From positions 1 through 64,000 of the forward strand of contig CANQRM010000008.1 of the NCBI GenBank assembly GCA_947626265.1: a DNA stretch of 64,000 bases, in the 5' to 3' direction. Under the pieces are notes generated by a model. That model ran no database searches. It saw only the letters and a list, made by a program, of their open reading frames with translations, and was not told the origin of the DNA. Below, one piece after another: positions 23,145 through 36,340 of this stretch (within the stretch, counting starts at the first letter, position 1; every line of letters starts with the position of its first letter). Source of the DNA: an uncultured Oscillospiraceae bacterium. GTDB taxonomy: Bacteria > Bacillota > Clostridia > Oscillospirales > Oscillospiraceae. The position numbers were made by a program, and so were the translations under genes.

Positions 23145-23182
23145 CCACCAAAAATGCGGGAAAAAGCCCCCTTTTTTGGTGG
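23145..23182 (-). terminator. Hairpin between recombinase gene and str promoter
   Basis: CCACCAAAAA (23145-23154) pairs with TTTTTGGTGG (23173-23182), with an inner GGG/CCC pair. On the minus strand it is followed by TTTGC. It can end the recombinase transcript before the str promoter. Confidence 0.6.
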
Positions 23183-23234
23183 GGTATCATAAGACAGTAT
23201 CGTGTCTCATTTTTCGGAAATGGCATGGCTTCGG

Positions 23235-25348
<2,114 letters not shown>

Positions 25349-25491
25349 GGCGGCCCTCCTGGATGGAATGAACAGGTCAAGAATTTACTTTAAAGTATGA
25401 TAGCAGAACGCGAGCGATTTTACAAGGGTGCAGTTGTGTCTGTTGAATCAAAACCGACGAATCTGACCGCAATCAAAATGGGCTGTTACGA

Positions 25492-26294
25492 TCCTGGCAA
25501 GCAGGGCATGGTGGTACACACCATGCAAAAAACTCGTTTTCCTGCCTGCCAGTCTTTTGCCTCCGCACAATCCTGGCAAGCAGGGCATGTGTGGCACCAC
25601 ATGCGAAAAATGGTCATTCCAGCTTCCTGCTGAAATGACCATTTTGCTTGTTGGGGAAGCATCCCCAAGCCCCTTTGAACAGCTCCGTGCCGGAGCTGGC
25701 TGCGCGTCCCTGCGAGACGCTTTTGTTTGTATGTTCTCAGTATCGTTTCGGCACTTTTTTGCCGCTGTGGGCGTGGACTTGGCGGTGTGATATACGAGCG
25801 TGGCAGGACATGAGTGAACCGGCTTTTGTATCATGTCGGGAACATGAAATCATCTTCCTTACGCGCCCTGTCTCTTGCAAAAGTTCTCGCATCAGACAGC
25901 CAGCGAGGGATAGCCTCATGGGGTCCCCGCAAAACACGGTTTTGTGGGGAGAGGAGGAGCAAGAGAGCGAGTGCAGTTTTCGCTTTAGCGGAAACGGAAC
26001 AGAGCGGACTTTGCGACGACGAGGCGCAAGTGGGCCGCCCCTTGAACGGAGCAGCAGCGACGCAAAACAGCCGGACATTCAGGTGTCCGGGATGTGTCTC
26101 GCAGAGCGCACATACATGGTCGTCAGACCATGTATAGAAGTGCGCCATTAGGAAAGAAGCGTTTCGGAGAACCGCGCAGCCAGCTCCGTCACGGAGCTGT
26201 TCAAAAGGGTCCGGGGATGCTGCCTTGGCAAGCAAAATGGTCATTCTGGCGCGGGGCCGGAATGACCATTTTCGCAGAGTGTGTACCACTCTGC
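25492..26294. repeat. Non-coding array of about ten hairpins with inverted arms
   Basis: No convincing gene fits the 1-kb gap 25349-26348. It holds two arms (about 25571-25720 and 26160-26310) that are imperfect inverted copies of each other. Each arm has, in order, TGGCAAGCA, a hairpin, an AAAATGGTCATT...AATGACCATTTT hairpin, and an AGCTCCG hairpin. The TGGCAAGCA hairpin stems differ but stay paired: GCATGGTG/CACCATGC (25506-25526), GCATGTG/CACATGC (25585-25604), GCAGAGTG/CACTCTGC (26274-26294). Between the arms lie further hairpins at 25925-25949, 25976-25995, 26071-26090 and 26112-26135. It may be the transfer origin or another replication site of the element. Confidence 0.7.
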
Positions 26295-26348
26295 ATTGCT
26301 TGCCACTTATGTGAGGCCACAGCAGATGAGGAATCCCACGCACGGTTT

Positions 26349-27695
26349 TTATTCTGTTTTCTCTGGACATGGGATCGTCGAGTAAAAGCCGAACAGCCGT
26401 TCTTTTTCCAGATAATTCAGCGTGTATGTTCCTCCGTTTTCAGCCAGCAGGGATGCGACGATCTTCAATCCATAGCCCCGCTCCAGCGGGTCGCCTTTCG
26501 TGGTCTGTACCGTGTTGTTTTCGATCTTCACGGGCTGGGCCGTCGTGTTCTCTACACAAAGCCACGCCTCCGCCGGGCGCATCTTCATGGACAGCCGGAT
26601 ATAACGCTGGCCGTCCGGCGGCATCGCTTCACAGGCGTCCATGGCGTTGTCGATCAGATTGGACAGGATCACCACCAGCGCATTGTCCGGCAGCGGGAAC
26701 GCCGCCAGGTCGTCAAACTGGAAATCAAACTCTATCCCCATCTCCTGCGCTTTGCTGGCCTTCTGGCTCAACAGAACATCCACAGTCGTGCGGTGCGTAT
26801 GAAAGCGAATGGGTGTCGGTTCTTTCGCGGCGATCAGCCCGTCCAGGTACTTTGAAAAATCCTCCTGGGACGCGTCCCTTTCGGCCATTCCCTTTAAGAC
26901 GGAAAGTTGGTCATAGTAATTGTGGGTCTGCCGCCTTTGCTGTTCATAGCTGTCTTGCAGCGCCTCGAAGTGTTCTGCCTCCAGTTTCAGATTTTGCCGC
27001 AGGACGGCGTTTTCCCGCGCCGCCGCCTGTGTCTTATCCAGCTTGTCCAGCAGGTACACGGACAGCAGATCGACCAGGAGCAGCACCACCATACAGATGG
27101 AAAGCCCACCTGAAAGGGCCGGATCTGACAGCATGATGCGAAACAGCACCACCCCGATCCCCAGCGAGGCCAGCGGGAAGAAACCGAGCCGCAGCCACTC
27201 TATCACGGAGGTGGCCAAATCGCGTATATGGCGCGTTTTCATCCAGGCGCGAAGCAGTATGATCCCCACTATCTCAATAAATTTGATGAAACAGCCCATA
27301 AGGAAATACGCAGAGGGATATTCATTTGCATATTGAACAATATCTCCGTGCGTTTTGGTGATATAGACCATTCCCGCAAGGTCGATTGCTGCTATGTACG
27401 CTAGGATGAAAAGCGAGAAAAAACAATACCGGCCAAAGCCCTTACCATATACTGTCCGGGCCCAAACAAAAATAATAAGAAAATCAACGCCCCATTTTAT
27501 TATGCCCCCGTTAGACAGCCCAGCCAAAGGCAGAAGCGCGTGCAAACTCTCCATAATGGTCAGTCCCAGCAGAGAAAGCACATAAAACCGCGTGGAGCAG
27601 GAGCGGGTAAAAAAGGCAGCCGCTGCCGAGGCGATGATCCATATTTCCAGAAGGATAAAGATGTAGCTGAACAGCGTCAATACGACAGGACTCAT
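26349..27695 (-). CDS. AgrC-like GHKL sensor histidine kinase
   Basis: A 448-residue kinase. The first 200 residues hold six or seven membrane segments as in AgrC/BlpH peptide receptors. A coiled linker leads to the phosphoacceptor region QTHNYYDQLSVLKG (about 260-273), where the His is kept but the usual following Asp is Asn, then the GHKL ATPase domain with N-box NLIDNAMDACE (about 355-365) and G-box ERGYGLKIV (about 414-422). The start at 27695 forms an ATGA overlap with the response regulator stop, so both are translated together. Its position in a cassette with an ABC transporter suggests sensing of a peptide, but no pheromone gene was found. Confidence 0.88.
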   Translation of the reverse strand: MSPVVLTLFSYIFILLEIWIIASAAAAFFTRSCSTRFYVLSLLGLTIMESLHALLPLAGLSNGGIIKWGVDFLIIFVWARTVYGKGFGRYCFFSLFILAYIAAIDLAGMVYITKTHGDIVQYANEYPSAYFLMGCFIKFIEIVGIILLRAWMKTRHIRDLATSVIEWLRLGFFPLASLGIGVVLFRIMLSDPALSGGLSICMVVLLLVDLLSVYLLDKLDKTQAAARENAVLRQNLKLEAEHFEALQDSYEQQRRQTHNYYDQLSVLKGMAERDASQEDFSKYLDGLIAAKEPTPIRFHTHRTTVDVLLSQKASKAQEMGIEFDFQFDDLAAFPLPDNALVVILSNLIDNAMDACEAMPPDGQRYIRLSMKMRPAEAWLCVENTTAQPVKIENNTVQTTKGDPLERGYGLKIVASLLAENGGTYTLNYLEKERLFGFYSTIPCPEKTE

Positions 27696-28402
27696 ATCCG
27701 ATGCCCCCGCCACTTCATGTAGCTTTCATATACCTGACGATACAGCGTCCGGGAAACGGGGAGGTTTTCTCCTGTGGTGAGGGTCGCGGAGTAGCTTTGC
27801 ATCCGCTCAATGTGCAGCGCGTTCACAAGATAACTGCGCTGTATGCGTAAAAAGCCCTTTTCGGCCAGGCGCTTCTCATAGTCCGAGAGCTTGCCCAAAC
27901 ATTCTGTGGCCTCTTTTTGATAGGTGTGGACAACGACGTGGCGTGTCGGCGTCCCCTCCAGGTATGTGATGTCCCGCGCACGGAACGTCACCGTGTTGGT
28001 GAGGGTCTGCGCCTGGATCGTCTCCTGGCTGGAGATGAGCTTATTTTCTACGGCGTCCAGGCAGGGAGGGAGCATTTCTGCAAGCCTGTCCTTCAACAAA
28101 TACCGAAACGCATCCACGCTGTATCCGTCAACGGCATATTCAATGTACGCGGTCACAAAGACGATCACCAGCTCCGGGTATCTGCTGCGAAGCTGACGCG
28201 CAACGTCCAGCCCGTTCACATCCGGCATATCTATGTCCAGAAACACAACGTCGAACTTGGCAAGATCGCTTTTCAGCAGGGCAGCCCCCGAAGCAAAAGA
28301 CCTGCATTGATGGGGCCAGTCCTTTAAGGCGTAATATGCCTCCAGCCGCTCTTGGAACAGCCGGAGAAACTCCTTGTTGTCGTCACAAATCGCTACCGTC
28401 AT
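27692..28402 (-). CDS. LytTR-family response regulator
   Basis: A 236-residue regulator. The receiver domain (1-120) has the acidic pocket ICDDN, phosphoacceptor Asp in FLDIDMPDVNG (about 56-66) and the switch Lys in YLLKD (about 104-108). The C-terminal LytTR DNA-binding domain (about 135-236) contains FRARDITYLEG and FLRIQRSYLVN. The start at 28402 gives MTVAICDDNKEF, with a GGGGGTGAT site ahead. LytTR proteins bind paired direct repeats with a period of about 21 bp; just such a pair lies in the divergent promoter region at 28523-28555. Confidence 0.92.
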   Translation of the reverse strand: MTVAICDDNKEFLRLFQERLEAYYALKDWPHQCRSFASGAALLKSDLAKFDVVFLDIDMPDVNGLDVARQLRSRYPELVIVFVTAYIEYAVDGYSVDAFRYLLKDRLAEMLPPCLDAVENKLISSQETIQAQTLTNTVTFRARDITYLEGTPTRHVVVHTYQKEATECLGKLSDYEKRLAEKGFLRIQRSYLVNALHIERMQSYSATLTTGENLPVSRTLYRQVYESYMKWRGHRI

Positions 28403-28522
28403 CCTGGCGATCACCCCCCTTGTCCGCCCCACAATATAGCAAATCCTTTTACCTGTCAAGAGTGCCGCCACCGGGCAAAACACCGTAAAACGGGCGTTTG
28501 CACCCTGTTTTTGTAACTTTTA

Positions 28523-28590
28523 TGCAGTTTACTGTAATCAAAATGCAATTTACTGCAATTTCCGTTTTTGAAAAAATTTTTTGGTATAAT
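28523..28590 (+). promoter_or_regulatory. LytTR-type direct repeats and promoter of the surface protein
   Basis: TGCAGTTTACTG (28523-28534) and TGCAATTTACTG (28544-28555) repeat at a period of exactly 21 bp, two helical turns. About 30 bp downstream is an extended -10, TGGTATAAT, with TATAAT at 28585-28590; no good -35 box is seen, which fits an activator-dependent promoter. The repeats lie between the response regulator gene and the surface protein gene. Confidence 0.7.
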
Positions 28591-28667
28591 TACGATACCT
28601 TGCATTATAGGCATCAGCTTGGCCGGGGTATCAACGATACTTGAAACCATGTAGGAGGTATCTACTT

Positions 28668-30221
28668 ATGAGCAAGAAATGGATCAGTATGTTTTTGGCC
28701 GCGATGATGCTGCTCGGTCTGGCTGTTCCTGCCTTTGCGGAGGGAGAACAGGAGGCCCCGCCCCCGGCGGAGATCGTGGAAGAAGCGCCCCAGGCAGAAG
28801 AAGCGCCTCCGGCCTCTGACAAGACAGCGCCCACCGAGGACGCCGTTGTAGAGGAAACCGTCGTTGAGGAAGCGCCTGCCGAGGAAATGACCAATGACGA
28901 TGGGATCGTGCCCATCTCCGACGAGCCCATGGCTGTGGCCGCTGGCGGTGTGACGGTAAATATTACCGGCTCGGTAGAAGGAATTGATGCGGTCCTTTAT
29001 AACAATAATATTTGGACTGATGCGGGTATACGCACCTATTATATTGATAAGCTCGGTATACGATATTTCGATATTAATAACAATACCTATTGGGTAGAAA
29101 AGCAGAGTTCCCTTCCGCTCCACTTTGAAGTATACCCTGGATGCGAGTTGGAGTTTCGTATGGACCCGCAGTATGGCCTTACAGCCGATAATGGTGTTAT
29201 CGCAAGCGACATATCTAATTCTTTGTATCTAGGCGAAGATATGTTTGCTCCGCGCCGTATCATTAAAGTAACCGCTCCCTCAAGCGGGACATTGACTGTA
29301 AACGTAGCTGCTGATGGTGCAGTTACATCAAAGCTAATACCGTATACCCTTAACTGTGATGATTCGTCTGCTATTGTAGGCGGCGAGGATTGGGGTTCTT
29401 CCTCCCCAGCAATGAAAACGCTTGACGATGGGAGCGTGCAGTGGAAAGTCAATACTGGTGGTGAGTTTTCAGTTTGGGTGGCCCCTGGCTATGCTATCGA
29501 GATGCTGAAAGGCGGTTATGTCGTAAAGACCGAGGCACCGTCCGGCCCCACTGCGGCTGGCGTTCCTGCTGGCTCCACAAGCTATGTGCTTCATGTTGAC
29601 CTGGACGCGGATGAATTTGTGATCGCCGCCGTGAAGCAGGGCGAACACTTCCAGGCGCCCGATACCAACGCGCCCCAGGCCGAGACGCCCACGCAGACTG
29701 ACGGCGCGTTCTCCGACGTGACCTCCGGCGAGTGGTATGAGGACACGGTCATGAGCGCCTATGAGAAAGGCATCATCAAGGGCGTCACTGAAAACACGTT
29801 CAGCCCCAACAGCACAACCACGCGGGGCCAGACCGTGACCATGCTTTACCGGGCTATGGGTTCCCCCTCCGCCGGTATAGTGTTCTCCGACACCAGCGGC
29901 GAGGTCGGCTTTGCGGCTGGCTGGGCGTCGGCCAATGGCGTGACCAATGGCGTCAGCGCCACGGCTTTCGCCCCCAACAGTTCCATCACCCGTGAGCAGC
30001 TTGTCACCATGCTGTACCGCTTGGCGGGCAGCCCGGCGGTGAATACCAACATCTTGGCGACCTACTCCGACGGCGGCACCGTTCAGAGCTACGCGCAGAA
30101 CGCTGTGGCCTGGGCCATCACGAATGGCCTTCTCACCGGCTATGGCGACGGCACGATCCATCCGGCAGGCGTGGCCACCCGTGCTGAGGTTTGCGCTCTC
30201 ATAATGCGCTATGTTGGATGA
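28668..30221 (+). CDS. Surface protein with three C-terminal S-layer homology domains
   Basis: A 517-residue exported protein. A signal peptide (1-24) is followed by an acidic low-complexity stretch rich in Glu, Ala and Pro (25-75), then an unrecognised beta-rich region (about 88-335) ending in a Pro/Thr linker. Residues about 350-517 are three S-layer homology domains, e.g. FSDVTSGEWYEDTVMSAYEKG and the TRGQTVTMLYR / TREQLVTMLYR / TRAEVCALIMR motifs, which hold proteins to secondary wall polymers. The start at 28668 follows AGGAGGT at good spacing. Probably switched on by the neighbouring two-component system. The middle region may be the effector or receptor part. Confidence 0.9.
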   Translation: MSKKWISMFLAAMMLLGLAVPAFAEGEQEAPPPAEIVEEAPQAEEAPPASDKTAPTEDAVVEETVVEEAPAEEMTNDDGIVPISDEPMAVAAGGVTVNITGSVEGIDAVLYNNNIWTDAGIRTYYIDKLGIRYFDINNNTYWVEKQSSLPLHFEVYPGCELEFRMDPQYGLTADNGVIASDISNSLYLGEDMFAPRRIIKVTAPSSGTLTVNVAADGAVTSKLIPYTLNCDDSSAIVGGEDWGSSSPAMKTLDDGSVQWKVNTGGEFSVWVAPGYAIEMLKGGYVVKTEAPSGPTAAGVPAGSTSYVLHVDLDADEFVIAAVKQGEHFQAPDTNAPQAETPTQTDGAFSDVTSGEWYEDTVMSAYEKGIIKGVTENTFSPNSTTTRGQTVTMLYRAMGSPSAGIVFSDTSGEVGFAAGWASANGVTNGVSATAFAPNSSITREQLVTMLYRLAGSPAVNTNILATYSDGGTVQSYAQNAVAWAITNGLLTGYGDGTIHPAGVATRAEVCALIMRYVG

Positions 30222-30270
30222 AACAACCGAATCGTGACGTGGATGAGCCGATGGCATAACCCATAGAACA

Positions 30271-30305
30271 ATCCCCCGCTTGCGGCCCAGCCGCAGGTGG
30301 GGGAT
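30271..30305 (+). terminator. Terminator of the surface protein gene
   Basis: ATCCCCC and GCGGC pair with GCCGC and GGGGGAT; followed by ATTTCTTTG on the plus strand, 50 bp past the stop. Confidence 0.75.
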
Positions 30306-30423
30306 ATTTCTTTGTCCTAAAATATGATTTATGGTGAAACGTATTCCGGGCACCCAAAGAGTGGATCAATTTAAGAAAGCCGTCTACCAAACGGAAAGCA
30401 GCGTTGTTATTGGAGGGTTTCGT

Positions 30424-31242
30424 ATGAAAAAGATAATTGTACTATTCGCCGGTATCACCACAATGGTTCTACTCTGTGCCGCTTGTGCAGGTGGGGCTAT
30501 TGACAAGGAGTACGGCGAGACTGCCCCAGTAGAGGAAGCAGACAGCGCCTCTATCTTCAATGAGAACGAAGCGATGATTACACCATCTGGCCAAGACGCT
30601 CTAATTGATGACCTACCTACCGTTACTTTGGGAGAGGCGTTTTACACCAAGAACCCGCTCATAAAAGGCAAGCTGTTATATACCATCAACAGCTTCCGCT
30701 GGTCTGACAACATAAAGGACCTGGATGTAGATTTTGAGGATTTCAACGGGGAGTATAACAGTAATAATGAATTTGTTTTTTGGGATGACGGCAATCCCCA
30801 AATAGTTCCAAACGCTGTGGATGCTGCCTCCGGCCAGTTGGGGGAGCATTTGATCTTTGTGGTGGCTGATGTGACCGTCACCAATGAGGACGCTGTTTGG
30901 ACAATGGCCGCTGGCCCCGGTGACAGTCAATATACGTTCCCCGCAAATCTCTGGAGGATATGTGATGCGGGAACCACAAACGATACCGGAGTCGACTACG
31001 CGGCCTATTACGCTGTGTTCTATACTGGCACCGAGAACTATGATGCAGCAGCAATGGGAACAAACGGCAGCAACTATCTTGTCGTGCGCCCTGGAGAAAC
31101 GATCAACTACAAGATCGGCTATATCATCGGCAATAACAGCGACGATTTCAGCCATTTCTATCTCACAGATGGTAATGCCTATTATGATTCAGATATTGAT
31201 ACCTACATCTATTTGGACATACCTGGGCAGGGGAAGGGATAA
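30424..31242 (+). CDS. Putative lipoprotein of an ABC transporter cassette (DUF5027-like)
   Basis: A 272-residue exported protein starting at 30424 behind GGAGGGTTTC. The N-terminus MKKIIVLFAGITTMVLLCAACAGG looks like a lipoprotein signal with Cys 18 or 21 as possible anchor. The rest is a beta-rich domain (LGEAFYTKNPLIKGKLLYTINSFRW; LGEHLIFVVADVTVTNEDAVW) of the immunoglobulin-like, DUF4352/DUF5027 type found in gut clostridia. Function unknown. The stop is 7 bp ahead of the first permease gene; lipoprotein, two permeases, ATPase and a membrane protein form one operon. Confidence 0.7.
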   Translation: MKKIIVLFAGITTMVLLCAACAGGAIDKEYGETAPVEEADSASIFNENEAMITPSGQDALIDDLPTVTLGEAFYTKNPLIKGKLLYTINSFRWSDNIKDLDVDFEDFNGEYNSNNEFVFWDDGNPQIVPNAVDAASGQLGEHLIFVVADVTVTNEDAVWTMAAGPGDSQYTFPANLWRICDAGTTNDTGVDYAAYYAVFYTGTENYDAAAMGTNGSNYLVVRPGETINYKIGYIIGNNSDDFSHFYLTDGNAYYDSDIDTYIYLDIPGQGKG

Positions 31243-31249
31243 TACATCT

Positions 31250-32104
31250 ATGAAAAGAACGCTTGTCAATGAACTGGAAAAGATGATACATAGCCGGACG
31301 TTGTTGTTTTCTTTTCTTATCGGCGTGGCCGTTTCTTCTGCAAATGTGGTAGAGAACTACCGTCTTACAAAATGGTTTTTGGGATTGCAGGAATTGAACC
31401 ATGTGCCGGGATATGGGACTTTGAACATATATACCAACTGGATCAACGGAGCAAATATGGGGATGGGGGCCGCTGTGTTCTTTGTCATCTTTCCGCTGCT
31501 GGCAGCGATCCCTTTCTCCTGGTCCTTGCAAAGTGAACGCCACAGTGGATATACCAACCAACTGCTTACCCGTAGCGCAAAGAAAAATTACCTCATGGCA
31601 AAATACATCGCGGTGTTTCTCTCCGGCGGCATATCAGTTTGCGGCGCTATGACGGTCAATTTCATGGCAAATGCGTGGATCTTGCCTCTTGTTGAACCTA
31701 TGCACATCCTGGTCCGTGGCGGCGACGGAATGTTTTTGTCCCGGCTGCTGTTCACAAAGCCCATGATATACATATTCCTGTGCCTGCTCACCAGCTTTGT
31801 ATGGGCGGGAACGCTGGCTTGTCTGGCCATGACGGTCGGGATGCTCATAAAGAACACCGTCATGCTGGTGTTGGTCCCGTTTCTACTGATTTTTGGCGGC
31901 TCTTTTCTGGTCAACGCTTTGACCCCAGTGAGAAACGCGGCTACTGGCTTTTTGGGAAAGCTCACGGTCAACCCCCTTCAACTGCTCCAGGCCGTTACGC
32001 TGAACGCCAACCCCGCATGGTATGTTTGGTCGATACAGCTAGGGTTATTGATCTTGGTGTCAGCACTCTATTTTCTCCGAGGGATGCGGGATGAAATTTT
32101 GTAA
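31250..32104 (+). CDS. ABC transporter permease, ABC-2/bacteriocin-immunity-like (1)
   Basis: A 284-residue membrane protein with six predicted segments: about 18-34, 85-110, 130-155, 175-200, 205-230, 255-277. A cytoplasmic loop SERHSGYTNQLLTRSAKKNYLMAKYIA (split by membrane entry) is typical of ABC-2 permeases such as those that export or resist antimicrobial peptides. The start at 31250 has GGGGAAGGG ahead. It overlaps the second permease gene by 14 bp. Substrate unknown. Confidence 0.78.
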   Translation: MKRTLVNELEKMIHSRTLLFSFLIGVAVSSANVVENYRLTKWFLGLQELNHVPGYGTLNIYTNWINGANMGMGAAVFFVIFPLLAAIPFSWSLQSERHSGYTNQLLTRSAKKNYLMAKYIAVFLSGGISVCGAMTVNFMANAWILPLVEPMHILVRGGDGMFLSRLLFTKPMIYIFLCLLTSFVWAGTLACLAMTVGMLIKNTVMLVLVPFLLIFGGSFLVNALTPVRNAATGFLGKLTVNPLQLLQAVTLNANPAWYVWSIQLGLLILVSALYFLRGMRDEIL

Positions 32105-32942
32105 GCTCTTGCAATATGATCTTCGGCGCGGGGTGATACGAAACTGGACATTCCTTTTTGTCCCGGTCTGCGTTGTGATCATTTGCATATCCTTCCGCCA
32201 ATCGCTTCTGTTCTGGCAAACCTACGGTTTCCAGAATGTCTCTGCCAGTTGGGCCCTGTATGTTGCGGACTTCTTTAAGGGATTGGCGGATGTTGACCGT
32301 GAAGGAGGATTCCAAATCCCGGTCCTATGGATGCTGGGACTGTTCTTGCCCCTGTTCATTACATTGAATTATCCCTTTAGGGACATCAAGACGATCGGCG
32401 TCCAGCTTCTGCTGCGTAGTGAAAGCCGCGTCGGTTGGTGGCTGGCAAAATGTGTATGGTGTCTGTGCTGCACCGTCGTGTACTTCCTATTGGCGTATGG
32501 AACCTTTGCCGTGTTTTGTGTTGTGTGGGACATTCCGCTGACCCTTGAAATATCGGGAGATTCGATCATCGTCCTTTTTGCCGATACGGGAGTGATGCCA
32601 GATGTGCAGGCGGTATCTGCGGGGCAGGTCATATTGACCGTCCTAGTGCTGCCATTTTTGACGGTGACGGCACTGAATATGCTGGAGCTTTTGTTGAGCC
32701 TTATCATTCGCCCGGTATATAGCTTTCTCGCTTGTGTGTCTCTGGTAGCGGCCGCTTATGCAAAATCTCCGATCCTATTTCCCAATTATGCCAATATCGC
32801 CCGCAGCGGCGCATTTTTCGTCACTGGCATGGACGGAAGTCTCGGTATAGCCATCTGCCTTGCGGTGGTGGTTTTCTCCGTGGCTGCCGGCGCAGCGGTT
32901 TTCCGTCGCTGGGATATTCTGCCGGACTATAAGGAGCTATGA
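32091..32942 (+). CDS. ABC transporter permease, ABC-2-like (2)
   Basis: A 283-residue membrane protein with about six hydrophobic segments (about 20-38, 78-100, 120-150, 180-210, 215-235, 248-272). LNYPFRDIKTIGVQLLLRSESRVGWWLAKCVW (continuous to the membrane) plays the part of the coupling loop, as SGYTNQLLTRSAKKNYLMAK does in the first permease, so the two probably form the heterodimeric pore. The stop overlaps nothing; the ATPase starts 2 bp later. Substrate unknown. Confidence 0.75.
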   Translation: MKFCKLLQYDLRRGVIRNWTFLFVPVCVVIICISFRQSLLFWQTYGFQNVSASWALYVADFFKGLADVDREGGFQIPVLWMLGLFLPLFITLNYPFRDIKTIGVQLLLRSESRVGWWLAKCVWCLCCTVVYFLLAYGTFAVFCVVWDIPLTLEISGDSIIVLFADTGVMPDVQAVSAGQVILTVLVLPFLTVTALNMLELLLSLIIRPVYSFLACVSLVAAAYAKSPILFPNYANIARSGAFFVTGMDGSLGIAICLAVVVFSVAAGAAVFRRWDILPDYKEL

Positions 32943-32943
32943 T

Positions 32944-33588
32944 ATGGAACTTGTACTGGATAACGTGAGTAAAACACTGAAAAGGTCAAATATCATCAGC
33001 GGGGTCAGCCTGAAGCTCTCCGGCGGGCATATATATGGTCTGCGCGGCTATAACGGTTCCGGCAAGACCATGCTCATGCGGCTGATGGCCGGGCTCCTTC
33101 GCCCGACCACAGGGACCGTGAGCATTGACGGCAAATGCCTGGGGAGAGATATTGATTTCCCGCCATCCCTGGGACTGTTCCTTGAAAACCCAGCCTTTCT
33201 CCCTAACTATACGGGTCTTGAAAATTTACGGCTCATAGCGTCGCTGCGAGGCGTTGCGGGCGAGGAGCAGATACGTTCCGCGATCAGCCGCGTGGGTCTG
33301 AATCCAGATGATAAGAGAAAATACCGCAAGTATTCTCTCGGAATGAAACAGCGGCTGGGTATTGCATGCGCCGTCTTTGAGGCCCCGGATATTCTATTGC
33401 TGGACGAGCCGACCAATGCCCTGGATACGGACGGGATCACACTTGTCAGAAACATCATCAGCAGCGAAAAGAGGCGAGGGGCTTTGATCGTCATCGCCTC
33501 CCATGACCGGGAACAGTTAGATGCGCTGGCAGACGTGATATACACCGTTGAGCATGGCCGGATCACAGGAGAGGAAAAGGCTGTATGA
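32944..33588 (+). CDS. ABC transporter ATP-binding protein
   Basis: A 214-residue ATPase. Walker A GYNGSGKTMLMRL (about 36-48), signature YSLGMKQRLGIACAVF (about 130-145), Walker B ILLLDEPTNALD (about 150-161) and H-loop ASHDREQL are present. Q-loop is atypical (GLFLENPAF). Shorter than average but of the size seen for peptide-export or immunity transporters. Start at 32944 behind AAGGAGC. It energises the two permeases upstream; overlaps the next gene by 4 bp. Confidence 0.92.
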   Translation: MELVLDNVSKTLKRSNIISGVSLKLSGGHIYGLRGYNGSGKTMLMRLMAGLLRPTTGTVSIDGKCLGRDIDFPPSLGLFLENPAFLPNYTGLENLRLIASLRGVAGEEQIRSAISRVGLNPDDKRKYRKYSLGMKQRLGIACAVFEAPDILLLDEPTNALDTDGITLVRNIISSEKRRGALIVIASHDREQLDALADVIYTVEHGRITGEEKAV

Positions 33589-34253
33589 AAAAGAAAAGCT
33601 GGATCATTATTGCATCTGTTTTCCTCATCTCCATAGTCGCAACCGTTTTCGCACAAATTCGTGTTCACCAATTCTATGAGGACAATTTCGGCATAGAAAA
33701 GCAATACTATACCATGGCCGAGTTGGTTCCTTTTGGTGATAACGCAATAGAAAAAGTCGCGGAGATGGAAGGATGTTTCCTCCGTGTAGATAAAGCAGAA
33801 ATACTCACTGGAAGCGTTTTTTTAGAGCGTGTTGGACAGACGGAGGAATCATTATCCGCTTTGCTGGGCCATGATATATCCCCGCGATCTGAACGGCTAT
33901 GCGTCCTCTCTACAACAATAGTGAATGGCAGCGAGGAAGATAAGAGTTTCGATCTCGGCAGCTTTACTCTCGTTGGGGAAAATTACGATGTTGCCCTGGA
34001 AAGCGAATATACGATCATAGCAAATCGCTTTCTTCTCGACGCGCATGAGAATGAATTGGATAGCTTATGGGGCGGGTTGGGGCAAACAGGTGTTCATCTG
34101 AACCCAGGCCAAGAAGCGGAAATAACGATGGTCTTTGGCTTTTCAAAGATGGATTTCAGCGCCCGGAAGTGGGATCGGTTGAATACAGAACCGCTTTGGC
34201 TTCAAATAACCTATACCCCTGTTGCAAAATACATTGAGCTGAAGATTTCGTAA
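33585..34253 (+). CDS. Membrane-anchored protein of the ABC cassette, unknown (DUF5028-like)
   Basis: A 222-residue protein with an N-terminal membrane anchor (about 5-24) and an exported domain that is mainly beta (LSTTIVNGSEEDKSFDLGSF; LNPGQEAEITMVFGFSK), reminiscent of the lipoprotein's fold and of the DUF5028 group. Its ATG overlaps the ATPase stop (ATGA), so it belongs to the same operon. It may be a further extracytoplasmic partner of the transporter. I cannot assign a function. Confidence 0.6.
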   Translation: MKKKSWIIIASVFLISIVATVFAQIRVHQFYEDNFGIEKQYYTMAELVPFGDNAIEKVAEMEGCFLRVDKAEILTGSVFLERVGQTEESLSALLGHDISPRSERLCVLSTTIVNGSEEDKSFDLGSFTLVGENYDVALESEYTIIANRFLLDAHENELDSLWGGLGQTGVHLNPGQEAEITMVFGFSKMDFSARKWDRLNTEPLWLQITYTPVAKYIELKIS

Positions 34254-34356
34254 GAGGGCAGATTATAGAAGCTGGGTCTACTTTTGGCAAAACCCAAGCA
34301 TAATCAATGGCAAACAGCCGGACGCATGATGCAGAGCATTTTCTATGAGGTGTATT

Positions 34357-34569
34357 ATGAACGATGAAATTTCCCGATGGGTGCATTGTCCTGTTTGCAG
34401 GAGCAAGACGAGGGTAAAAGTGAATCCAGATAGCGTTTTACTAAACTTTCCGCTCTTTTGCCCGAAATGCAAACAGGAACACAATGTCAGTATCATCCAG
34501 ATGAAGATGGTGATAAATGATGAGCCGGAAACACCACCCCGGCCACGCTTCCAGTATAAGTACCCCTAA
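34357..34569 (+). CDS. Cysteine-rich KTR-family protein
   Basis: A 70-residue protein with two CxxC pairs, HCPVCRSKTRVKV and FCPKCKQEH, holding a presumed zinc ion. Together with the KTR stretch this matches the small proteins often found in conjugative transposons of Firmicutes; role unknown. The start at 34357 was preferred to 34345 because GAGGTG is well placed for it. It is an independent sign that the island is, or was, mobile. Confidence 0.8.
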   Translation: MNDEISRWVHCPVCRSKTRVKVNPDSVLLNFPLFCPKCKQEHNVSIIQMKMVINDEPETPPRPRFQYKYP

Positions 34570-34592
34570 CAGAGACACGGGAGGTGAAGCAC

Positions 34593-34799
34593 ATGAGTGA
34601 CGATCTTTTCCCCGCCCGCCTGCGTAAACTTCGGGAGGCGAGAAGAATCAATGCGAGAGCCCTGGGAGAACTTTGTGGGCTGTCAAAGAACATGATCGGG
34701 CGGTATGAAAAAGGAGAGATGCCGTCCGTCAAATCATTGATAGCACTGGCAGACTTCTTTGATGTGTCGATCGACTACCTGCTGGGACGTGATAAATAA
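34593..34799 (+). CDS. Small XRE-family helix-turn-helix regulator
   Basis: A 68-residue single-domain regulator: LRKLREARRINARALGELCG..KNMIGRYEKGEMPSVKSLIALADFFDVSIDYLLG. The start at 34593 follows GGGAGGTG. Such stand-alone repressors are typical of mobile elements and may control the element or its cargo. It sits 24 bp behind the KTR gene, likely in one transcript. Confidence 0.88.
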   Translation: MSDDLFPARLRKLREARRINARALGELCGLSKNMIGRYEKGEMPSVKSLIALADFFDVSIDYLLGRDK

Positions 34800-34880
34800 C
34801 TATGCTGTTTCCTGACAGAACCCGAAACATTCCCTCTGCTGCTGTCTCAGCATAAGCATCCATAGCAGAAGCCGCCGTTG

Positions 34881-34986
34881 CTGTCAATGGTCAAGATGAA
34901 CGGCTCTCCGAGCCGCCATTGACAGCCCCGTCTGCTTCCGCTCTCCCTGTCTGTAAGAAGGGCGACAGCCATTTCCGCTGTTGCCC
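34881..34986. repeat. Two large hairpins behind the HTH gene
   Basis: First: CTGTCAATGG (34881-34890) pairs with CCATTGACAG (34916-34925), and inside CGGCTC (34901-34906) pairs with GAGCCG (34910-34915), leaving only a one-sided 10-nt bulge. Second: GGGCGACAGC (34960-34969) pairs over 10 bp, with one G-U, with GCTGTTGCCC (34977-34986). No T-tract follows. They open the 870-bp gene-free stretch 34800-35671. Confidence 0.65.
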
Positions 34987-35022
34987 CTCCTGCAGTATCT
35001 GTTCCTTGCCCCACATATCAGG

Positions 35023-35520
35023 GGTCGATGTCCGCATTTAAGTGCCCTGGACCCCTTCTGCCGCAAGGGATTGGACCTGTTAAACGCAGGGGGGTAATGG
35101 TGGTATATGGCGACACCCGAAATCGGGGGGCTATATGCGGACATACTTAAAAATACTTAATGATTTGCTGCTATATGTGTGACCCGGTGAAAACAAGGCT
35201 TCGATGTGACGCTTTTGGCCGGTCAGACCCCTTGCGGCGTAGGGCTTTCAGAGCGCCAAAGTCAGGGGGGTAAGGGTAGTATACGGCGCACCCCGAAAAC
35301 CGGGGTCTATTGCGTACATACTTCAAATTATTTAATTACTTATCGCGGTACTTGTAATGCCATGAGTTCATGGGGGCCTATGTCACGCTTTAGGGCTTCT
35401 GAATCCCTTGCGGCGCAACGGGTTCAGATCGTCAAAGTCATAGGGGTAAGGGTAACATACGGCACCCATCAAAAACGGGGGTTCATTGCGTGACATGCTT
35501 CAAAGTTTTTAAGCGATTCA
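35023..35520 (+). ncRNA. Three tandem 176-bp units with conserved stem-loops, candidate structured RNA
   Basis: Equivalent ATG triplets at 35028, 35204 and 35380 show an exact 176-bp period. Sequence has diverged, but blocks such as CTTGCGGCG, AGGGGTAAGGGTA and CATACTTCAAA persist, and stems are kept through different bases. Domain 1: TTTAA/TTAAA in unit 1 (35037-35084), TTTGGC/GCCAAA plus GAC/GTC in unit 2 (35208-35263), CTTT/AAAG plus CCTATG/CATAGG in unit 3 (35377-35444). Domain 2: GTAT/ATAC with CCCG/CGGG in unit 1, AGTAT/ATACT with CCCCG/CGGGG in unit 2. A-rich loops favour the plus strand. No open frame runs through. I recognise no known RNA family; a DNA-level role is possible. Confidence 0.5.
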
Positions 35521-35523
35521 AAA

Positions 35524-35562
35524 CAGACAACGGCTGGTGCATTTCGCACCAGCCGCTGTCTG
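35524..35562 (-). terminator. plsY-der terminator
   Basis: Seventeen-base arms (35524-35540 and 35546-35562) with one mismatch around ATTTC, followed on the minus strand by TTTTGAATC, 110 bp past the plsY stop. The gap 35563-35671 holds nothing else recognisable. Confidence 0.75.
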
Positions 35563-35671
35563 CTCTGTCGATTCCAATTCCGTAAGGCAGTTGCCACTTT
35601 TCAATTATCCGGTGTCATACTGTCTTACAGAACCCCTCCATTCCAGGGGGCTTTTCGCCTATCGTCAAAAA

Positions 35672-36340
35672 TCAGAAGTCGTCGTCCGTCTTCCGGGTGT
35701 TCTGGGGTCGGCCCCACTTCACCTTGGGCTCCTTCTTGTTGAGGAGCTTGAAGATGTGACCCCGGTGCCGCCACAGCAGCACCAGCGCCATGAACAGCGC
35801 CAGCGTCCCGCACAGGCCCTTCAGGTTCTCCGGCGCGACAAATATCCACGCGGCGATGGGACCCGCCACGGCGGCGGCCATGCTGGCCAGGGAGAGATAC
35901 TGGGCGAAGGCCACCACGATGACGAACACGCCCGTGGCCACCAGGCCGATGCGCCAGTCCGCCAGCCAGAAGGTGACGAGGCAGCTGACCACGCCCTTGT
36001 TGCCACGGAACTGGTGATGGGCCGGGTACATGCCGCCCAGCATGGCGCAGAAGCCGGCGAACAGCTTGCCCACGGTCACGTAGGTGCCGTTCTTATCCAC
36101 GATCAGCATCAGAAGCCCGCCGGCCAGCACCGCGATGGCGCACTTGAGCACATCCGCGGCGATGACCGCGGCGCCCCACTTGGTGCCGTAGACGCGGACA
36201 AAGTTATTGTAGTCCGGCCGCTTATTGCCCTGCTTCGTCAGCTCCTTGTGGAAGACGAAACGGCTGAGGAGCACGGGCCCGTTCAGCGCGCCCAGGCCAT
36301 AGCTCAGCACGGCGGTGAGGATGAGAAGAACAGGGATCAT
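35672..36340 (-). CDS. plsY: PlsY-like glycerol-3-phosphate acyltransferase, divergent
   Basis: A 222-residue membrane protein with five to six segments. FRGNKGVVSC (about 112-121) matches the GGKGVAT loop of PlsY, which transfers acyl groups from acyl-phosphate to glycerol-3-phosphate in phospholipid synthesis. The first PlsY motif (GSGNxGATNxxR) is much altered here: QGNKRPDYNNFVRVYG, keeping GN, N and R only. A charged cytoplasmic tail (about 195-222) is added. Its start overlaps der by 4 bp, a common clostridial arrangement. Activity as a true PlsY is likely from context but less certain because of the altered motif. Confidence 0.75.
   Translation of the reverse strand: MIPVLLILTAVLSYGLGALNGPVLLSRFVFHKELTKQGNKRPDYNNFVRVYGTKWGAAVIAADVLKCAIAVLAGGLLMLIVDKNGTYVTVGKLFAGFCAMLGGMYPAHHQFRGNKGVVSCLVTFWLADWRIGLVATGVFVIVVAFAQYLSLASMAAAVAGPIAAWIFVAPENLKGLCGTLALFMALVLLWRHRGHIFKLLNKKEPKVKWGRPQNTRKTDDDF

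Follow-up and report, generated by a model that had tools for sequence, protein, structure and literature searches.

A covarying structured element triplicated at the end of a mobile island and present singly in ICE-like regions of Clostridia

The DNA analysed in this work (the window) is a stretch of 64,000 nucleotides from an uncultured Oscillospiraceae bacterium (assembly GCA_947626265.1, contig CANQRM010000008.1). It carries a mobile element of about 12.5 kb at 23181..35650, whose ends are approximate to some bases and whose size could be established because a close relative, G027, carries the uninterrupted site, with a left flank 98.6% identical over 570 bp and a right flank 96% identical over 700 bp. 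The element is inserted between rpsL and plsY, in the loop of a palindrome that resembles a terminator, and the arms of its inverted ends (23162-23200 and 35617-35655) include bases of this host palindrome. Just inside the left end, the minus strand encodes a large serine recombinase (23235..24905; Pfam Resolvase, Recombinase, Zn_ribbon_recom and DUF4368) and a 148-aa ORF of no family (24902..25348), which adjoins the recombinase in several related elements. Towards the right end, the plus strand carries a gene for a small cysteine-rich KTR protein (34345..34569; PF14205), located by tblastn upstream of the array in many related elements, and a Cro/CI-type HTH gene (34584..34799) that occurs in some related elements only. 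The other island proteins with a Pfam family are a GHKL kinase, a LytTR response regulator, an SLH protein, a DUF2705 protein and an ABC ATPase, and no relaxase was recognized by Pfam among the 12 island proteins scanned.

Related elements have the right end in common and differ in the interior, and their flanks past the right-end repeat are unrelated, apart from a short GC-rich start. The island family seems to target terminator-like or REP-like GC-rich palindromes, the halves of which flank the element. Within the island, the stretches at 25607-25722 and 26157-26272 of the window form a 116-nt inverted repeat, 80% complementary and 434 nt apart, which is possibly a nested small element. The cargo includes a LytTR response regulator beside an SLH protein (window 27692-30221), and a pair judged by eye to look alike is present at L012:750-3601, in the second island of the same genome, on C1.

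The array that is the subject of this work lies at the right end of the mobile element. Its three units, each about 117 bp long, begin at 35028, 35204 and 35380 with a period of exactly 176 bp, as the first-pass annotation had it, and their linkers measure 59-60 bp; the near-constant block that the annotation placed between two stem domains is also there, as GGGGTAA(G/T)GGTA. All units are on the plus strand. Unit 1 (35028..35144) has an outer stem, named P1, formed by 35028-35037 with 35135-35144; in unit 2 (35204..35319) the equivalent stem is ATGTGACGC / GCGTACAT, with one bulge, and in unit 3 (35380..35496) it is ATGTCACGC / GCGTGACAT. The array is preceded on the same strand by a hairpin at 34864..34942 (arms 34864-34890 and 34916-34942), constant in most of the related arrays inspected, and by a second one read from the sequence at 34960..34986 (GGGCGACAGC / GCTGTTGCCC). 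A terminator-like hairpin (35519..35567, plus strand) starts 22 nt past unit 3; its T-run is weak in the window and reads TTTTTC in the paralogue L012, and the terminator scan did not flag it. It is followed by the right-end inverted repeat CGTAAGGCAGT .. ACTGTCTTAC (35581..35628, plus strand), which related elements retain immediately ahead of the point where their unrelated flanks begin.

Two ORFs of at least 60 codons overlap the units, one of 86 codons on the minus strand over unit 1 and one of 95 codons over units 2 and 3, and both were taken as chance. The whole window gave no match to Rfam 15 at gathering thresholds, and a permissive search of the array gave sub-threshold matches only, the best of which (27.3 bits versus a threshold of 100) is the hairpin after unit 3 and not a unit. 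No unit reached an Rfam threshold in any of the sequences scanned, which agrees with the earlier statement that the units match no known RNA class. A duplex consensus scan of the island region (34500-35700) found no sigma-70-type promoter, where shuffles gave a mean of 1.1 sites. An opposite-strand -10 box judged by eye was dropped, its last base not being conserved.

A covariance model (R1), built from six units, was used to search 60 genomes, that of the window included, at E <= 0.01. This search, which the first-pass annotation had proposed as a check, yielded relatives with covarying pairs outside the window: 111 matches, among them one antisense match and some weak ones, in 17 of the 60 genomes. 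The positive genomes all belong to the same genus (17 of its 35 members versus none of the 25 others). The matches make up 19 three-unit arrays, 13 two-unit arrays and 28 singles, and the spacing between units is 175-177 bp in 46 of 51 cases; since the 176-bp period is kept so far beyond the window, the array is not a product of chance. Among the arrays inspected, units 1, 2 and 3 are distinguishable types that recur in that order. Right ends were collected in 51 rows, 38 of them long, and in 34 of these 38 a unit match lies directly upstream; the remaining four comprise two that are cut by the contig and retain a partial unit, one with a truncated unit and one without a unit (L097). A variant first unit at L083:3351-3483 has the outer stem ATGTAATGGTTT/AAACCATTACAT and a different core, and L070:470-583 begins like it. 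Chimeric units, with the 5' half of type 1 and the 3' half of type 3, were observed at L087:6136-6272 and L089:2917-3054; their P1 is unpaired because the halves come from different unit types, and they are likely deletions through exchange between units.

The first-pass annotation had described stems preserved by base changes. The covariation is indeed strong, although the strongest stem was absent from its list: it is the outer stem P1 (ATGTCCGCAT/ATGCGGACAT and equivalents), in which the first 9-10 bases of the unit pair with the last ones. In the R1 alignment (A4; 76 distinct rows, a few of them antisense), 94.7% of the P1 cells are paired and seven of the nine pairs show a both-sided change somewhere, representing few independent events because much of the change lies between unit types. 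The whole R1 structure scored 0.220 for covariation in these 76 rows, versus 0.133 in shuffles and at most 0.101 in slid versions, with no excess of doubly changed pairs (13 versus 13.5 in shuffles). A more diverse set of 27 rows was composed of six rows from the same genus and 21 from loci of the Cys_rich_VLP gene (VLP loci) described below. Here 87.7% of the P1 cells are paired, 80 cells are doubly changed versus 29.0 +- 4.1 in shuffles, and the covariation score is 0.560 versus 0.179 +- 0.023 when shuffled and at most 0.134 when slid; further pair types were not in excess (23 versus 21.8 in shuffles). RNAalifold, unprompted, recovered eight P1 pairs and no other helix, and distant loci have independent P1 stems (for example GTTACGCAGTAG/CTACTGCGTAAC, GTCCGCAAATAG/CTATTTGCGGAC and GTAACGCTTTAG/CTAAAGCGTTAC). 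Coding constraint does not explain P1, because its 3' arm usually lies outside the VLP gene. The units form a structured family with a covarying stem, whose changes go beyond both shuffled and slid controls.

The same data bear on the idea that the island units are hitch-hiking relics of ICEs, kept only through lying inside the right end. Truncated and chimeric units do exist (L087, L089, L095) and the long right end L097 has none, which would suit relics; the level of P1 pairing in the R1 alignment and the spacing kept in the 19 three-unit arrays oppose this idea, which we consider scarcely credible.

The inner stems, on which the first-pass annotation had concentrated, are there but fared less well, with support that differs from stem to stem. 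Pair types were counted on 72 sequences (the 92 rows of A4 minus four antisense rows and the weak variant L070, with duplicates merged). The stem TTTGGC/GCCAAA was partly supported, its pair 17-58 being GC in 44, AT in 12, GT in 6 and AC in 4 of the 72. The stem AGTAT/ATACT is present and mostly invariant, yet one of its pairs, 84-161, varies on both sides (TA 53, CG 9, TG 6, CA 4). The stem CCCC/GGGG is paired in 70% of cells, but in predicted folds a rival hairpin shares its C-run. Pairing in A4 is weaker for hairpins P2 (73.5% of cells) and P3 (70.3%) than for P1, and family-wide P2 and P4 are weak (mean z of -0.7 to -1.6). Minimum-energy folds of several members, most of all the ICE ones, suggest P4 as another second hairpin, in which the constant block contributes a G-run that pairs with the C-run and so competes with P3.

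The proposal of a structured family in triplicate at an island end is supported, but the element also occurs outside the island: single units are located at VLP gene ends inside ICE-like regions, and not only at the ends of elements. The genome of the window itself has a single unit on C4, where it occupies the end of the Cys_rich_VLP gene in an ICE-like region; 25 nt separate the end of this unit from the ATG of an ArdC-N gene. In this same region, a skipping-rope RNA (RF02924, 74 bits) is present just before a topoisomerase III gene (L015:2408-2486). Searched in distant mode at E 1e-3 against plasmid and phage records, the C4 unit gave no match. A second model (R2) was run on 394 genomes of the order and 391 of the class, with only 8 candidates per genome scored, and gave three weak matches outside the own genome (L103, L104 and L105); the absence elsewhere means little, because so few candidates per genome were scored. 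L103 and L104, distant matches with different but intact stems, were taken as real, and L104 is again at a VLP gene end; L105 was taken as chance.

A scan for the VLP protein in one genome per species (84,980 species) found at least 537 relatives, of which the best 80 loci were kept. At E <= 1, R2 had a match in 42 of these best 80 loci, in 41 of them at the VLP gene end; at E <= 0.01, it had one in 16. In a model-free reading, the best inverted repeat between the region of the VLP stop and the bases 70-150 after it was determined for the 65 unique loci. It ends at the place of P1 in 56 of the 65. Its helix score is at least 7 in 61, five of these helices (L134, L170, L115, L108 and L109) lying off the P1 place, and in 48 it exceeds that of each of 20 shuffles made from the same locus. 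According to the names in the sequence records, the carriers include Roseburia, Anaerotruncus, Oscillibacter, Lactonifactor, Eubacterium, Criibacterium, Peptostreptococcus and Clostridium, that is, members of Lachnospiraceae, Oscillospiraceae, Peptostreptococcaceae and other Clostridia. Sixteen of the 80 ICE loci scanned whole against Rfam yielded only a tRNA, and L012-L015 yielded the skipping-rope RNA and tRNAs above threshold, the unit not being among the matches. The finding is real, and larger than the first-pass annotation had seen.

Two of these loci (L171:4353-5530 and L173:4345-4960) show the VLP gene end and unit duplicated around an insert, with a right boundary sequence common to both; the insert of L171 is a 233-aa ORF of no Pfam family. 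An integron-like cassette site was considered for them and rejected, since the copied stretch (215-229 bp) is longer than the unit and ordinary duplication or exchange accounts for it.

The units of the VLP loci lie directly 3' of the VLP gene and on its strand, and the VLP stop codon is usually at the inner end of the 5' arm of P1. In a simple scan of what follows P1, which misses cut genes and in which some ORFs are short or in a doubtful frame, a GC-rich terminator was found in 33 of the 65 unique loci, at an offset of 26-31 of the stretch read (about 22-27 nt past P1) in 28 of these 33. A Shine-Dalgarno sequence with an ORF of at least 60 codons follows in 20 of the 65, one of which has a terminator too, and neither a terminator nor a gene start was seen in 13. 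An ArdC-N domain is encoded after the unit in L015, L111 and L116, and the gene of L088 is ArdC-like by its start only. In L132, the unit has the VLP gene on one side and, on the other, the 3' end of a convergent relaxase gene. Elsewhere too it lies in sense to its neighbour: it follows the recombinase in C10 and the KTR and HTH genes in the island, and it precedes a DUF6017 gene in L184. A simple rule is contradicted by the copy on C26 (L014), where the genes read on either side are on the opposite strand. The island appears to follow the plan of the VLP loci, with a small cysteine-rich KTR gene, the units, 22 nt and a hairpin.

These surroundings led us to hypothesize that the unit is a cis-acting structured element of clostridial ICEs and mobilizable elements that acts within their transcript, a reading which we favour tentatively, at somewhat less than an even chance. 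A folded element of near-constant length (about 115-120 nt) would act in cis in the transcript of the mobile element. As RNA, it would have P1, hairpin P2 and hairpin P4 meet in a junction, and the alternative hairpin P3 would compete with P4 for one C-run. The fold might bias the passage of RNA polymerase or of the ribosome into the terminator or into the next gene, which in several ICEs is an anti-restriction gene of the ArdC type, and the island triplet may insulate or tune transcription across the recombination end. Counting against this reading are the neighbours of the C26 copy, the equal folding of the two strands described below, the sigma-70 scan that found no site near the array, the weak T-run of its hairpin, the family-wide weakness of P2 and P4, and the 13 VLP loci in which the simple scan saw neither a terminator nor a gene start.

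A different use of the same placement would be that of a single-stranded promoter of the Frpo kind, or of a leader like EGeRS1 of the pLS20 family, through which the recipient would express establishment genes such as ardC at an early stage. The units of L015, L088 and L111 end 23-25 nt before the ATG of the ArdC-like gene, and EGeRS1, as described for pLS20, immediately precedes the RBS of ardC and lacks a regular promoter (PMC8708921). However, a terminator follows the unit in half of the VLP loci, as given above, the duplex scan of the island region found no -35/-10 pair, and the length of about 117 bp differs from the 400-600 bp of EGeRS1. In other conjugative systems, the relaxase region enters the recipient last. 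If this also applies here, the transferred strand of L132-type elements is the non-template strand, which counts further against a promoter or leader; the pLS20 authors raised the same objection for their own case (PMC8708921). We consider this use improbable.

The first-pass annotation had left the choice between a structured RNA and a DNA structure; the structure stands and may be of either kind, since both strands fold equally well and the wobble evidence is mixed. Among 42 units, the mean folding z is -3.79 on the plus strand and -3.92 on the minus strand, the plus strand being the lower in 24 of 42 (p 0.14); in a small control of seven tRNAs from the loci analysed, the sense strand gave the better fold each time. 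Mismatches in the P1 of ICE members (21 rows) are G-T in 7 cells versus A-C in 9. Distinct departures in the island units are G-T in 6 events and A-C in 1 for P1, and G-T in 6 and A-C in 5 for P2. The mismatch totals of the VLP-locus repeats (G-T 20, A-C 16) include some helices outside P1 and were left out of this comparison, as was a further G-T/A-C tally in which the registers of the island units were mixed. The position downstream of the VLP gene and the terminator spacing favour a transcript; DNA is favoured by the symmetry of the strands and by the occurrence in elements that are transferred single-stranded.

A role as single-stranded DNA during transfer is therefore a close rival of the transcript reading. 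The unit could be a folded site used during transfer or rolling-circle replication, either an sso or a related second-strand start that recruits host enzymes, and we regard this as possible rather than probable. It is consistent with a fold strength that is the same on both strands, with G-T not being favoured over A-C in the ICE stems, and with outer P1 pairs that, in the 27 rows, switch between Watson-Crick types with almost no G-U. The copies read also sit in what their neighbours indicate to be ICE- or IME-like surroundings, in DNA that moves single-stranded, and the described position of the ICEBs1 sso, directly downstream of the relaxase gene (PMC4595007), recalls the L132-type unit at the 3' end of a relaxase gene. 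On the other hand, DNA priming leaves unexplained the near-fixed terminator distance (the 28 of 33 loci above) and the sense placing after VLP, the orientation to the relaxase differs between C10 and L132, and the P1 of the island has an excess of G-T, 6 to 1.

If the signal belonged to transfer, the triple array of the island might be a mobilization mimic, that is, a copied ICE signal that lets a resident ICE move a relaxase-less island. The island has a recombinase, the 12 proteins scanned with Pfam include no relaxase, the same genome has single units in an ICE-like region and in two elements with MobQ relaxases, and an array or unit is kept at 34 of the 38 long right ends. Against this, the L132-type unit lies where the relaxase gene ends (3') rather than on the side of its promoter, and a search for one oriT sequence of MOBQ type gave no match: L013 lacks the 25-mer even when 3 mismatches are allowed, and the exact 13-base core does not occur in 94 loci. 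We judge such mimicry very improbable.

A broader reading, rather unlikely in our estimation, would be that the family acts either on the single strand as it enters or on the first transcript of that strand, a single fold thus serving both strands, and that it is spread through ICEs of several clostridial families, a fixed triplet having been copied into mobilizable islands that would use it to exploit resident ICEs. To return to the reading that we favour, the action of the unit within a transcript, the most solid part of this work is the covarying stem common to ICE-like elements across Clostridia, and the weakest is the mechanism. So far, a few model elements have provided the structured cis-elements known in conjugative DNA (canT, EGeRS1, sso, Frpo); the unnamed family described here is defined by covariation and has a constant position in a common kind of ICE-like element. 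Provided that it is functional, it would offer a handle on the control of expression or of second-strand synthesis in ICEs and in the islands that ride along. The titles and abstracts searched contain no description of the element; the supplementary tables of a structured-RNA survey of human microbiomes may include it (PMC8040213).

Previous studies describe several elements with which this family can be compared. EGeRS1 of the pLS20 family, in the description available, stands immediately ahead of the RBS of ardC and of other establishment genes (PMC8708921). It is alike in belonging to a Gram-positive conjugative element and in being structured and repeated, one copy even having an internal duplication (PMC8708921). 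The place directly before an RBS holds for L015, L088 and L111, and perhaps for others of the 20 among 65 loci in which a gene start follows. Compared by description only, EGeRS1 is unlike in its length of 400-600 bp versus about 117 for the unit and in lying upstream of several operons of one plasmid, whereas the unit is mostly single at the VLP gene end and, in half of the VLP loci, is followed by a terminator. The canT element of Tn916, a structure at the right end of an ICE, is reported to act in cis on terminators, most likely as RNA, and to couple gene expression to the circular form; it was studied as a 452-bp fragment, of which some shorter ones are active (PMC11658703). By description only, it resembles the island array as a structured element at the right end of mobile DNA, and differs in that the first left-end gene of the island points the other way. 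A canT-like readthrough in the circular island was rejected, since for this reason it would run antisense to the recombinase.

The sso of ICEBs1 is described as an intergenic single-stranded DNA structure of three stems next to the relaxase gene, in which structure is as important as sequence or more so (PMC4595007). Also compared by description, the sso of ICEBs1 and of rolling-circle plasmids is unlike the unit, which is mostly at a fixed terminator distance or just before a start codon. Frpo and ssi elements are alike, as far as their description goes, in being folded, in lying near anti-restriction genes and in occurring sometimes in several copies (PMC11541004); the island, however, has no -35/-10 pair in the duplex scan, and half of the units of the VLP loci precede a terminator. 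The skipping-rope RNA (RF02924), which shares the ICE-like region with the C4 unit and lies 2.5 kb upstream of it, is a different Rfam family, which the unit does not match. We claim membership of the family in none of EGeRS1, canT, sso and Frpo. On our analysis, its nearest counterparts would be EGeRS1 in place and appearance, canT for the right end of the island and, should the unit act as DNA, the sso, with Frpo probably fitting less well.
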